64,000 nt of DNA, taken from Arthrobacter sp. PvP023. GTDB taxonomy: Bacteria > Actinomycetota > Actinomycetes > Actinomycetales > Micrococcaceae. This document shows, one piece after another, positions 643-55,085 of this stretch. The stretch is taken from contig NZ_JAFIBI010000001.1 in assembly GCF_017832975.1 (NCBI RefSeq), positions 744,001 through 808,000 of the forward strand, written 5' to 3'. The translations under genes were made by a program, and so were the position numbers. The first letter of the stretch is position 1, and each line of letters starts with the position of its first letter. The notes beneath the pieces were generated by a model. That model saw only the letters and a list, made by a program, of their open reading frames with translations, searched no databases and was not told the DNA's origin.

Positions 643-1728
643 ATGAGCACGACAGCGGGCCGCGCAGACCCTGACGCCCCGGAGCGACCCAAGCTGGAGG
701 ACCTCGCCCGGAAGGTGGGCGTCAGCATCGCCACCGTGTCCCGCGTGGTCAACGGCCGGAAAGGCGTTTCGCGTGAGGTGCGGCAGGCGGTTCTCGCCGC
801 GATGGACGACCTTGGCTACGAGCGCCCGGACCGTGCGCGGAGCACCACCCGGGGCCAGGTGGGGATTATCGTCCCGGACTTGACCAATCCGATCTTTCCG
901 GCAATTGCGCAGACCGTCGTATCGCTCCTGTCCCAGGAGGACTTCATCCCGATTCTCTGTGCGTTGCCGGGCGGGGGACGTTCAGAAGATGAGTACATCG
1001 AGATGCTTGTGGCGCAGGAAGCGTCCGGAATCATTTTCATCTGCAGTTCACACGCCGACGGCCAGGCCAGCCTGGAGCGCTACCACCGGCTGCGCGGCCG
1101 CGGCATCCCCTTCGTCCTGGTCAACGGTGCCCGCCCGGAACTGGCGGCCGCTTCCGTGTCCAATGACGACGCCGCGGCAATCTGCACCGCGGTGCAGCAC
1201 CTCGCCAGCCTGGGGCATCGGAAGGTGGGGCTGGCCATCGGCCCGCACCGCTTCATCCCCAGCAGGCAGAAGCTGGCCGGATTCCGCTCCGCCCTCGCCG
1301 AGTACCTGGACATCGAGGACCCGGAACCACATACGGCCACCAGCATGTTCACAGTGGAAGGCGGGCAGAGCGCGGCGAATGAGCTCCTGGACTCCGGCCA
1401 CACGGCGATTGTGTGCGCCTCCGACGTCATGGCACTCGGCGCCATCCGGGCGGCCCAGGCAAGGGGGCTGCGAGTCCCGGAGGACGTGTCCATCGTCGGT
1501 TTCGATGACTCCCCGCTGATGGCCCTGACCAACCCGCCGCTGACCACGCTCCGGCAGCCTGTCGCGGCCATCGCGCACGCCGCCGTCCACGCCCTGGCGG
1601 CCGACATTGCCGGCGAACACTCCACGCGCTCGCCGGTGGTCCTGGCGTCCGACCTGGTGGTGCGCGGCTCTACCGGTCCTGTGGCAGAATCTTCAACCCC
1701 GCCGCGCAGCCAACGATCCCGGCGATGA
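643..1728 (+). CDS. LacI-family transcriptional regulator
   Basis: Sugar-responsive DNA-binding regulator of 361 aa, the usual LacI length. The N-terminal helix-turn-helix covers about residues 16-40 (LEDLARKVGVSIATVSRVVN), followed by the hinge helix (VLAAMDDLGYERP) and a type I periplasmic-binding-protein fold that begins at GQVGIIVPDLTNPIFPAI. The start is well supported: AAGGAG at 633-638 precedes the ATG. It is transcribed away from the secreted pullulanase fragment, so glucan or maltodextrin control is the likely job; that is inference from position. Its last 59 bp overlap the 3' end of the convergent SMR gene at 1670-2008. Confidence 0.9.
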   Translation: MSTTAGRADPDAPERPKLEDLARKVGVSIATVSRVVNGRKGVSREVRQAVLAAMDDLGYERPDRARSTTRGQVGIIVPDLTNPIFPAIAQTVVSLLSQEDFIPILCALPGGGRSEDEYIEMLVAQEASGIIFICSSHADGQASLERYHRLRGRGIPFVLVNGARPELAAASVSNDDAAAICTAVQHLASLGHRKVGLAIGPHRFIPSRQKLAGFRSALAEYLDIEDPEPHTATSMFTVEGGQSAANELLDSGHTAIVCASDVMALGAIRAAQARGLRVPEDVSIVGFDDSPLMALTNPPLTTLRQPVAAIAHAAVHALAADIAGEHSTRSPVVLASDLVVRGSTGPVAESSTPPRSQRSRR

Positions 1729-2008
1729 ACAGCAGCTTGAGCGGGCTGGCAGGCTCGACACCGGTGGCCATGGCCCAGCCCACTGTCAGCGCGGCGCCGA
1801 TGCCCACCCACACGGCGTAGGCGGTCCCGAGCGGGATCGATTTCACGGCGATCCCCAGCCCCGCCATGCTCAGAGTTGCGGTGACGGCAAAGACAGCAGT
1901 GGGCAGTGCCTGGGAGAAGCCGTCGGACAATCCCAGTGCCGTGGCCCAGACGGCCTCCAGCACGGCGGAAGCGAGCAGGACCAGCCACGCAATGGCATTC
2001 CTGGTCAT
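1670..2008 (-). CDS. SMR-family exporter subunit A, probable guanidinium exporter
   Basis: 112-aa membrane protein with four predicted helices, the standard small multidrug resistance size. It keeps the membrane glutamate (E18 in VLEAVWA) that couples protons to substrate, and GTAYAVWVGIG, a signature typical of the SugE/Gdx branch. The ATG at 2008 overlaps the TAA of the upstream SMR gene by one base (TAATG), so the two are translationally coupled and probably form a heterodimer. Because the mRNA leader carries a guanidine-III riboswitch, guanidinium export is the best-supported role; quaternary-ammonium export is the alternative. The 3' end overlaps the convergent LacI gene. Confidence 0.85.
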   Translation of the reverse strand: MTRNAIAWLVLLASAVLEAVWATALGLSDGFSQALPTAVFAVTATLSMAGLGIAVKSIPLGTAYAVWVGIGAALTVGWAMATGVEPASPLKLLFIAGIVGCAAGLKILPQDR

Positions 2009-2331
2009 TACGCCACCACCTTCAGGCCCACCACGGACGCCGCGATGCCGGCGAGCAGCAGCAGCCGCGCCGCCGTCGCGCGTTCCACTTTGGTGACCAT
2101 CGCGTAAGCGGAGGTCAGCACTACGCCGACACCCACCCACACCGCGTAGGCAGTGCCTGTGGGGATGGACTGCATAGCGATGGCGAGGCCGCCGGTGCTG
2201 GCGATGACGGAAACCAGGAAGACCGCCGCGGGCAGCACACGCCGGCGGCCTTTGGCCTGGGACGTCCGGTGCAGCGCTGCGGCCCAGACGGCCTCGAGGG
2301 CGCCGGAGAAAATGAGGATTAACCACGACAT
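2008..2331 (-). CDS. SMR-family exporter subunit B, probable guanidinium exporter
   Basis: 107-aa four-helix SMR protein, first gene of the pair. It carries the conserved E13 (ALEAVWAAAL) and GTAYAVWVGVG. It differs from subunit A by a basic loop (SQAKGRRRV) between helices 1 and 2, as expected for a two-gene SMR system in which the partners adopt opposite membrane topologies. The start ATG at 2331 has SD AAAGGA directly upstream, abutting the 3' end of the riboswitch at 2344-2384. It was chosen over longer in-frame starts because those would run through the riboswitch. Confidence 0.85.
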   Translation of the reverse strand: MSWLILIFSGALEAVWAAALHRTSQAKGRRRVLPAAVFLVSVIASTGGLAIAMQSIPTGTAYAVWVGVGVVLTSAYAMVTKVERATAARLLLLAGIAASVVGLKVVA

Positions 2332-2343
2332 GACAGATCCTTT

Positions 2344-2384
2344 GGCCAGTCTTGTCGCGTGCCGGGTACTGAACCGTCGTCCGG
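2344..2384 (-). promoter_or_regulatory. Guanidine-III (ykkC-III) riboswitch
   Basis: The minus strand here reads CCGGACGA, then seven bases, GTACCCGG, then GCGACAAGACTGG. These are the conserved blocks I know for the guanidine-III aptamer (CCGGACGA, GUACCCGG, ACAAGAC) in the right order and spacing. The two CCGG blocks can pair, and CAGT can pair with ACTG to close the pseudoknot. The SD AAAGGA follows three bases or fewer after the aptamer, so ligand binding probably controls ribosome access. The genes controlled are the SMR pair at 2331-1670. Confidence 0.85.
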
Positions 2385-2493
2385 AGGCTCCGGACGGGAA
2401 CCTTGGTCCCAGCGTAGCAACGCCCGACGGCGGGCGGCCACCGTTGGTGGCCAAGCTCACCGGGGCTTCGCAGGCCGGTGTCTTAGCTGCACG

Positions 2494-50673: not shown

Positions 50674-51930
50674 TTAGGCCCCGATGATGTTGTATTCCGG
50701 ACCGAACGGGAACTTGGTGATGTTCTCCGCGCCGTCCTCGCCCACCACCAGGATGTCGTGCTCGCGGTAGCCGCCGGCGCCGGGCTGGCCGTCCATGACC
50801 GTGATCATCGGCTCCATGGAAACCACCATGCCCGGCTCCAGGACCGTGTCGATGTCCTCGCGGAGTTCCAGCCCGGCTTCGCGGCCGTAATAGTGGCTCA
50901 GGACACCGAAGGAATGGCCGTAACCGAAGGTGCGGTTGGCGAGCAGTCCGTAACCGACGTAGATCTCGTTGAGCTCCGCGGCGATGTCCTTGCAGACCGC
51001 GCCGGGCTTGATCAGTTCCAAACCGCGCTTGTGGACCTCGACGTTGATGTTCCACAGCTCCAGCGAGCGGGCATCCGGTTCGCCGTAGAACAGGGTGCGT
51101 TCCAGCGCGGTGTAGTAGCCGGAGGTCATGGGGAAGCAGTTCAGCGACAGGATGTCGTGTTCCTGGATCTTGCGGGTGGTGGCCCAGTTGTGCGCGCCGT
51201 CGGTGTTGATGCCGGACTGGAACCAGACCCAGGTGTCGCGGATTTCCGAATCCGGGAAGGTCCGGGCGATTTCGTGGACCATGGCTTCGGTGCCGATCAG
51301 CGCGACCTCGTACTCGGTGATGCCTGCCGTGATGGCGTTGCGGATGGCTTCGCCGCCGAGGTCGCCGATGCGCGCCCCGTGCTTGATGACCTCGATCTCC
51401 TCGGCGGACTTGATCATCCGCTGGCGCATGGCGGCCTGGGCCACGTCCACGAGGGCTGCTGAGGGGAAGGCAGCCTGGATCTTGTTGCGGTTATCCAGCG
51501 GCAGCGAGTCGTCCTCGACACCGAGGCGGCGCGGGTTGATGCCGCGGGTGCGCAGGACTTCCTGGATGGCGAAGATGTAGTTGTCCCGGCGCCAGTCCGT
51601 GTAGATGACGTTGTCGCCGTAGCTGCGCCGCCACGGCATGCCGGCGTCGATATTGGCCGTGACGGTGACGGTGTCATCCTTGGTGACCACCATGCCGTAG
51701 GAGCGGCCGAAGGTGGTGAAAAGGAAGTCGGAGTAGTACTTGATGGAGTGGTAGCTGGTCAGGACGACGGCGTCCAGGTCCTTCTCGGCCATGATGCGGC
51801 GCAGGCCGGCGAGGCGGCGCTCGAACTCAGTGTCGGAGAACGTCAGCTTGACCTTGTCGCCGTTTTTCAGGACTTTGAGCCGCTCCAGTTCGGCGACGGA
51901 CGTTGCGTTCTCGGATGTTGTGGTGGTCAT
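50674..51930 (-). CDS. Creatinase (creatine amidinohydrolase, M24 pita-bread fold)
   Basis: 418 aa. It hydrolyses creatine to sarcosine and urea. The sequence tracks the Pseudomonas and Arthrobacter creatinases closely: TSYHSIKYYSDFL, NIDAGMPWRRSYGDNVIYTD, RMIKSAEEIEVIKHGARIGD, WFQSGINTDGAHN (H247, the catalytic His, H232 in the Pseudomonas enzyme), TFGYGHSFGVLSHYYGREAG and MEPMITVMDGQPGAGGYREH. Unlike metallo-aminopeptidases of this fold it needs no metal. It sits between an MHS transporter and an IclR regulator. Confidence 0.93.
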   Translation of the reverse strand: MTTTTSENATSVAELERLKVLKNGDKVKLTFSDTEFERRLAGLRRIMAEKDLDAVVLTSYHSIKYYSDFLFTTFGRSYGMVVTKDDTVTVTANIDAGMPWRRSYGDNVIYTDWRRDNYIFAIQEVLRTRGINPRRLGVEDDSLPLDNRNKIQAAFPSAALVDVAQAAMRQRMIKSAEEIEVIKHGARIGDLGGEAIRNAITAGITEYEVALIGTEAMVHEIARTFPDSEIRDTWVWFQSGINTDGAHNWATTRKIQEHDILSLNCFPMTSGYYTALERTLFYGEPDARSLELWNINVEVHKRGLELIKPGAVCKDIAAELNEIYVGYGLLANRTFGYGHSFGVLSHYYGREAGLELREDIDTVLEPGMVVSMEPMITVMDGQPGAGGYREHDILVVGEDGAENITKFPFGPEYNIIGA

Positions 51931-53951: not shown

Positions 53952-55085
53952 ATGGTTCACAAAGTAAAAGCCGTTGTCGTCAAGGAGAAGAACGCTCCGG
54001 TTTCGCTGGAGACCATCCTGGTGCCGGACCCGGGGCCGGGTGAAGCACTGGTGGACATCCTCACGTGCGGGGTGTGCCACACGGACCTGCACTACAAGCA
54101 GGGCGGTATCGGTGAGGACTTCCCCTACCTGCTGGGCCACGAGGCTACCGGCGTGGTCAACGCGGTGGGACCGGACGTCACCGAAGTGGCCCCCGGCGAC
54201 CGCGTGATCCTGAACTGGCGCGCCGTGTGCGGAGAATGCCGCGCCTGCGCGAAGGGCCAGCCGCAGTACTGCTTCAACACGCACAACGCGACGCAGAAGA
54301 TGACGCTGGAGGATGGCACTGAGCTCTCGCCCGCGCTGGGCATCGGTGCGTTTGCGGAGAAGACGCTCGTTGCCGCCGGGCAGTGCACCAAGGTGGACGA
54401 CGACGCCGATCCCGCCGCCGTCGGGCTCCTCGGCTGCGGCGTGATGGCAGGCATTGGCGCCGCGATCAACACCGGTGAGGTCAAGCGCGGCGAATCCGTT
54501 GCCGTGATCGGCTGCGGCGGCGTGGGCATCGCCGCCATCGCGGGCGCGAAGCTGGCCGGCGCCACCACCATCATCGCGGTGGACATCGACGCCAACAAGG
54601 TGGAAATGGCCAAGTCCCTCGGCGCTACCCACGGCGTGGATTCCAGCAAGGAAGACCCGATCGAGGCCATCCGGGCGCTGACCGGCGGCAACGGCGCCGA
54701 CGTCGTGATTGAAGCGGTGGGCCGCCCCGAGACATACAAGCAGGCGTTCTACGCCCGCGACCTCGCCGGCCGCGTGGTGCTGGTGGGCGTTCCGACACCG
54801 GACATGAAGCTGGAGCTGCCCCTGCTGGATGTTTTCGGCCGCGGCGGATCCCTGAAGTCCTCCTGGTACGGCGACTGCCTGCCGTCCCGGGACTTCCCGA
54901 TGCTGGTGCAGCATTACAAGCTGGGCAACCTGGACCTGGACGCGTTTGTCTCCGAACGCATCACCATCGACCAGGTGGAGGAGGCCTTCGAGAAGATGCA
55001 CGAGGGCAAGGTGCTGCGTTCCGTGGTCGAAATCAGCCCGTCCGCCGAGACCGCGCGCACCGCCCCGGAAGCGGCCGCCGTATGA
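53952..55085 (+). CDS. S-(hydroxymethyl)mycothiol dehydrogenase (formaldehyde dehydrogenase)
   Basis: 377 aa, zinc-dependent medium-chain alcohol dehydrogenase of the mycothiol-dependent class (about 360 aa plus an Ala-rich tail). Catalytic zinc: [14 protein letters not shown] and LGHEATGVV; structural zinc: [18 protein letters not shown] site [37 protein letters not shown] is typical of this class. It oxidises the adduct of formaldehyde and mycothiol to formyl-mycothiol. First of three coupled genes (ATGA overlap with the next), fitting formaldehyde released from sarcosine and other N-methyl compounds. Confidence 0.9.

Follow-up and report, generated by a model that had tools for sequence, protein, structure and literature searches.

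Which RNA precedes the overlapping SMR genes at this locus, what would the two proteins export, and how could binding of a small molecule to the leader decide whether a ribosome starts on them? We searched the whole stretch of DNA under analysis (64 kb, hereafter the window) with cmscan against 4227 Rfam families, and a single match reached its gathering threshold: RF01763, the Guanidine-III riboswitch, on the minus strand at 2406..2341, with 57.4 bits against a gathering threshold of 36, E 3.1e-9 and model positions 1-67 covered, i.e. at full length. The original prediction, which had recognised the conserved aptamer blocks in the leader and proposed a scan with the Guanidine-III covariance model as the check, is confirmed by this match. 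Its interval of 2008-2384 holds correct facts and omits the first stem of the aptamer as well as nearly all of SMR2: position 2384 is the first base of CCGGACGA, and the full model extends 22 bases beyond it on the 5' side, where it opens with a variable stem-loop.

The aptamer, its leader and its distribution

The pocket blocks ACGA, GUACCCGG and GACAAGAC are all present within 2380..2349 of the minus strand; the pocket bases of CCGGACGA are those given in the accessible part of Huang et al. (PMC5696562), mapped by hand. Like RF01763 and the T. fusca structure 5NWQ, the element combines a full-length covariance match with CCGGACGA, GUACCCGG, GACAAGAC and both stems, and sits 5' of SMR (emrE-type) genes. 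It differs from them, in an alignment that was likewise mapped by hand, in being one base shorter before the last stem and in holding a U.C mismatch within that stem. The aptamer lies in the leader of an SMR gene, a location that fits Guanidine-III, which is expected ahead of SMR, guanidinase or related genes: its 3' end at 2341 falls within the Shine-Dalgarno (SD) sequence AAAGGA of SMR1, and the start codon follows 9 bases past the aptamer end. Two features of this layout depart from T. fusca: the SD touches the aptamer, whereas the T. fusca RBS is reported to lie 16 nt behind it (PMC5696562, accessible part), and what follows downstream is a pair of genes.

Guanidine-III was found once in the genome to which the window belongs, and the corresponding searches for Guanidine-I and Guanidine-II found none; in each case 150 first-look candidates were scored, out of 1451 for Guanidine-III, 217 for Guanidine-I and 1600 for Guanidine-II. 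Across the genus, by which we mean the Arthrobacter/Pseudarthrobacter/Paenarthrobacter group, 193 of 198 searched genomes carry Guanidine-III, all 193 above the cut-off, and in the class 124 of 296 genomes do, 118 of them above the cut-off; the numbers of genomes lacking a match are maxima, because a limited number of first-look candidates was scored per genome. A search with the SMR1 protein (E 1e-6) gave no match in the five genus genomes without Guanidine-III, two of which are only 83% complete. Named relatives at 78-89% protein identity (the best 80 of 588) fall in the same Arthrobacter/Pseudarthrobacter/Paenarthrobacter group. The Guanidine-III element described here is an unremarkable representative of an established riboswitch class, near-universal in the searched genomes of the genus.

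The aptamer is preceded by an extended -10 element, TGCTACGCT (Table 1). Its pattern, TGnTAnnnT, recurs in 88 of the 91 genus leaders, 26-31 bases ahead of GGACGA, in 9 of 62 other leaders and in none of 364 control stretches from the same genus loci. A scan of 1500-2700 for sigma-70 promoters (with a -35 element required) and for terminators returned nothing. We infer that transcription would start about 7 bases 3' of TGCTACGCT, just ahead of the 5' stem of the aptamer.

Table 1. Features of the riboswitch locus, in window coordinates
Feature	Position	Strand	Basis
Extended -10 element TGCTACGCT (TGnTAnnnT)	2411..2419	-	conserved in genus leaders
Guanidine-III riboswitch aptamer (RF01763), variable 5' stem-loop included	2341..2406	-	cmscan 57.4 bits
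CCGGACGA, conserved: P1 5' strand (naming of PMC5696562) plus guanidine-pocket ACGA	2377..2384	-	sequence, Rfam alignment
GCGACAAGAC, conserved aptamer 3' strand, proposed anti-start strand without guanidine	2349..2358	-	no variation among the 91 genus leaders read
SMR1 Shine-Dalgarno AAAGGA; in the predicted clamp the GG faces CC from the last stem strand of the aptamer	2338..2343	-	sequence, fold
Predicted clamp partner GUC-AUG-UCG-UG (3 non-coding bases, start codon, codon 2, part of codon 3)	2324..2334	-	conservation, pair counts
SMR1, Gdx-type subunit, 107 aa, ATG start, positive first loop	2008..2331	-	PF00893 61 bits
SMR2, Gdx-type subunit, 112 aa, without positive first loop	1670..2008	-	PF00893 61.1 bits

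The exporter gene pair

As predicted, the aptamer is followed by a two-gene SMR unit in which the stop codon of SMR1 and the start codon of SMR2 have one base in common (TAATG, joined at 2008). Compared with solved structures, SMR1 matches Gdx-Clo (6wk5) with E 1.6e-13 and EmrE at best with 1e-6; for SMR2 the values are 2.9e-15 and 1.2e-4. Both subunits share with Gdx (SugE-type) proteins and Gdx-Clo the central Glu and the LEAVWA and GTAYAVWVGxG motifs, and E13, W16, Y62, W65 and G67xG69 (the mechanistic Glu, Trp, Tyr and GxG) are invariant across eight aligned sequences. The homology to Gdx-Clo supports the exporter type that had been proposed, and SMR1 and SMR2 together are probably a guanidinium exporter of the Gdx type. 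The first loop of SMR1 carries R22, K27, R29, R30 and R31, that of SMR2 has no such charges, and the two proteins are of opposite Arg/Lys bias, with the topology assigned by eye. Opposite bias is what paired Gdx subunits display and what a heterodimer would lead one to expect, and more than 95% of adjacent SMR pairs are reported to show it (PMC9574504, accessible part).

A multidrug (Qac/EmrE-type) function in place of Gdx strikes us as very improbable. SMR subtypes are alike, and the NCBIfam matches are all below cut-off, SugE included (74.3 for SMR1 and 62.8 for SMR2, with the equivalog cut-off at 126 bits). SugE nevertheless ranks first among the models listed (20 for SMR1, 21 for SMR2), Gdx-Clo is the best structure for both, and the pair sits under a guanidine riboswitch. 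It is the other SMR pair of the genome, at 883 kb of the contig, that looks Qac/Mdt-like: one of its proteins weakly matches Qac/Mdt models and the other matches none, and no Rfam family reaches its gathering threshold at that pair.

The organisation of the locus was compared across 160 loci. Of these, 91 were taken from the 193 in the genus, namely the locus of the window, the 30 with the best scores and 60 chosen from lower rows; the remaining 69 came from the class search (29 supplied by the search and 40 chosen by hand). The 160 loci contain 153 aptamers, after removal of seven that were off-pattern, and 145 leaders with an SMR start, after removal of eight that had none, all removals being from outside the genus; 91 of the 145 are genus leaders and 54 are others. 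The genus counts are not independent, because the sequences are related. Two genes follow the riboswitch at 90 of the 91 genus loci, locus L002 being the exception, whereas 53 of the 54 riboswitch-controlled SMR loci read outside the genus have a single gene. By these counts the paired-gene arrangement under Guanidine-III is lineage-specific, and it offers a clear example of a lone Gdx gene that probably turned into a coupled exporter of two subunits governed by one riboswitch.

Two observations concern the coding sequences themselves. In the genus alignment the synonymous sites of codons 80, 86, 102, 105 and 106, towards the 3' end of SMR1, are as slow as that of codon 2, with codon 80 showing 0 steps in 77 sequences; the slow change at codons 102, 105 and 106, just 5' of the SMR2 start, is as expected from translational coupling. 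SMR2 and the convergent gene of a LacI-type regulator (643..1728) share 59 bases at their 3' ends (1670-1728).

Pairing between the aptamer and the start codon

In an unconstrained fold of 2420..2300 the start codon lies opposite the conserved strand of the aptamer. In this predicted clamp CGCGACA (2359..2353) is paired with UGUCGUG (2330..2324), GAC (2351..2349) with GUC (2334..2332), and GGCC (2347..2344) with the SD's GG and the bases that follow it; in the ensemble, GCGACAAGAC pairs with the start region at a mean probability of 0.73. We favour, with a fair degree of confidence, a mechanism in which Guanidine-III switches on translation of the two-subunit guanidinium exporter by means of a start clamp that guanidine releases. 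Without guanidine, CGCGACA.GAC (2359..2349) would pair with GUC-AUG-UCG-UG (2334..2324) and the last stem strand of the aptamer with the SD, so that the ribosome could not start. Once ACGA and the stem beside it have bound guanidine, the 3' strand would be held in the pseudoknot, and the SD and AUG would be freed (an ON switch); the published structure, as presented in the accessible part of PMC5696562, suggests to us that the strand cannot pair with the start while it is in the guanidine core. SMR2 would be translated through coupling at the TAATG overlap, and SMR1 and SMR2, opposite in charge bias, would assemble into an antiparallel heterodimer that carries guanidinium out against protons.

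Alternative pairing would govern ribosome access here as it does in translational riboswitches that hide the RBS or start (PMC7266159, accessible part); unlike in those, sequestration would fall to the conserved strand of the ligand core itself and not to a separate anti-SD. Aptamer and expression platform would share one strand, because the core strand GACAAGAC itself would pair with GUC-AUG. This provides a specific model for how Guanidine-III may turn translation on, a step for which the accessible part of Huang et al. (PMC5696562) refers to competing structures and leaves these unspecified. The literature titles and abstract openings that we searched contain no description of pairing between an aptamer strand and the start codon.

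Translational control, as originally predicted, is supported by the conservation of leader and start features. Of the 91 genus leaders 81 have the triplet GTC immediately 5' of the start, as do 30 of the 54 others; among these other families it is found in 27 of 42 short-spacer leaders versus 3 of 12 with long spacers, and among the window's gene starts that have an SD it occurs once in 41, the one being SMR1 itself. Parsimony on a tree of 90 genus loci (L002 excluded) gives 3, 2 and 4 Fitch steps at -1 to -3 as against 20, 14 and 12 at -4 to -6. Where codon 2 is Ser in the genus, it is TCG in 74 of 82 cases, compared with 52 of 544 at the remaining Ser codons of the gene. Beyond the genus TCG shows no excess at codon 2 (9 of 16 versus 141 of 356 other Ser codons). 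The third base of Ser-2 changed 4 times in 81 genus sequences, and 5 of the 66 other fourfold columns are as slow or slower.

Could GTC-ATG-TCG have been kept for some other cause, be it shared ancestry, initiation context or a protein site, with its complementarity to the aptamer incidental? The leaders are related, so TCG and GTC could be ancestral, and control homologues without an aptamer are few: six of ten named loci without a recognised aptamer were usable, two of the six have GTC, and one of these two carries what, judged by eye, resembles a deviant aptamer. Against this stand the free variation at -4 to -6, the recurrence of the pattern in other families with variable spacers and its absence from the 40 other gene starts of the window; we judge incidental complementarity to be distinctly improbable. 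SMR homologues from genomes without the aptamer were dropped as a control set, with four matches in 3 of 25 such genomes being too few. In Pseudarthrobacter sp. AL07 (L171, upstream of 983) the SMR gene is kept, an intact aptamer is not recognisable by pattern or by eye, and GTC has become GTT.

The pairing itself was assessed by folding 91 genus leaders and 45 others (nine others with a spacer over 30 were left out), as well as 70 of the 80 leaders of the named set, which is the best 80 of 588 and partly overlaps the unnamed set. The start pairs with the aptamer 3' strand at a mean probability of 0.665 in the genus (n=91; 0.19 in shuffles) and 0.33 in the other leaders (n=45; 0.14 in shuffles). 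For the exact GAC-GUC register the means are 0.776 versus 0.022 in the genus (n=91), 0.432 versus 0.022 in other families of the order (n=14) and 0.322 versus 0.015 in other orders (n=31), an enrichment of about 20- to 35-fold in all five sets, of which the named ones partly overlap the others. Pairing of the start with the aptamer 5' strand, the spacer or the coding sequence was rejected, at mean probabilities of 0.01, 0.025 and 0.014, respectively, in the genus.

Complementarity at the six positions free of coding constraint follows the same order. Counted over distinct leaders, with the Arthrobacter part of the named set (L165-L187) excluded, the paired fraction is 0.93 in the genus, 0.72 in other short-spacer leaders, 0.54 in long-spacer leaders and 0.35 at the window's other gene starts (n=40), and at least five of the six positions are paired in 87 of 91, 43 of 88, 2 of 15 and 0 of 40, respectively. 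Shifting the arms by 1-3 bases lowers genus pairing over all 12 positions from 0.79 to 0.18-0.46. When the aptamer is locked, i.e. its bases are forbidden other pairs, the start becomes cheaper to open: in the genus the energy needed drops from 8.7 to 2.96 kcal/mol, with 79 of 91 leaders gaining 1.5 or more, and in the other leaders from 7.09 to 4.95 kcal/mol, with 24 of 45 gaining as much. The aptamer pseudoknot is beyond what the folding program can represent, and so is the balance of the two states.

Other results fit the clamp less well. The fold energy of the window's leader is unexceptional (z -1.48, with 17 of 200 shuffles as good), and so is that of the hairpin alone (z -1.31, 21 of 200). 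The 5% shuffle rank is passed by 11 of 45 non-genus leaders and by 16 of 49 in the named non-Arthrobacter set. The register is weak or absent in Mycobacteriaceae (0.098, n=6) and in Rhodococcus/Nocardia/Gordonia (0.154, n=12), and it is 0.000 in three divergent Arthrobacter. The riboswitch might control the pair without any clamp, the folded aptamer mainly blocking RNase E scanning or perturbing the SD through nearby structure. Besides the lineages in which the clamp is not seen, this reading can draw on in-line probing cited by Huang et al. (accessible part of PMC5696562), in which both aptamer stems are formed without guanidine and the third strand alone changes, and on a review that attributes to Guanidine-III translation control plus protection of the mRNA from RNase E scanning (PMC12186494, accessible part). 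It leaves unexplained the non-coding GTC, the TCG at codon 2 in the genus and the excess of the register over shuffles and other starts, and we consider it rather unlikely.

Returning to the start clamp released by guanidine, how far beyond this locus might it extend? For short-spacer actinobacterial Guanidine-III in general, the proposition that GACAAGAC doubles as an anti-start strand on GUC-AUG, with codon 2 drawn in within the Arthrobacter group, seems to us evenly poised.

Guanidine physiology and other genes under Guanidine-III

The original prediction had pointed to creatine breakdown by the surrounding genome as a reason why guanidine stress might be relevant, and this part of the argument is not supported. 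The creatinase is real (50674..51930 on the minus strand; PDB 1chm, E 5e-172) and lies 48 kb from the riboswitch. Its gene adjoins an MFS symporter gene, and an S-(hydroxymethyl)mycothiol dehydrogenase gene is found at 53952. Creatinase yields urea and sarcosine, and creatine as a guanidine source was rejected as support for this reason. Gdx proteins, moreover, are described in the accessible part of PMC9574504 as highly selective for guanidinium over creatine. As a whole, the original interpretation is partly supported.

A better physiological link than creatine lies at 860-869 kb of the contig (within L257, 858000-872000), where genes for a permease (TIGR03428), UAAP1, UAAP2, a urea-carboxylase-type enzyme (1780 bits against a cut-off of 1304) and allophanate hydrolase stand in a row. 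An alignment counted by hand places Asp785 of the carboxylase opposite an Asn of the K. lactis urea carboxylase, at a position that we take to be the specificity residue N1330. Asp is stated to mark guanidine carboxylases and Asn urea carboxylases in the accessible part of PMC12186494. By this residue L257 would be a guanidine-carboxylase-type operon, about 114 kb from the riboswitch, and no Rfam family reaches its gathering threshold there. Because it has both a carboxylase-type operon and a riboswitch-controlled Gdx pair, the organism can probably both assimilate and export guanidine, and of the two processes probably only export is under a known riboswitch.

Other genes, too, stand behind Guanidine-III elements among the loci read. 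At L033, L035, L036 and L042 the riboswitch is found 5' of a protein of about 380 aa; that of L033 belongs to the arginase family, is agmatinase-like and is possibly a guanidinase. At L043, L055 and L085 it lies directly 5' of a gene for a small protein of 86-93 aa, a possible unrecognised guanidine-related transporter; the small protein of L055 matches the CBU_0592 family membrane protein.
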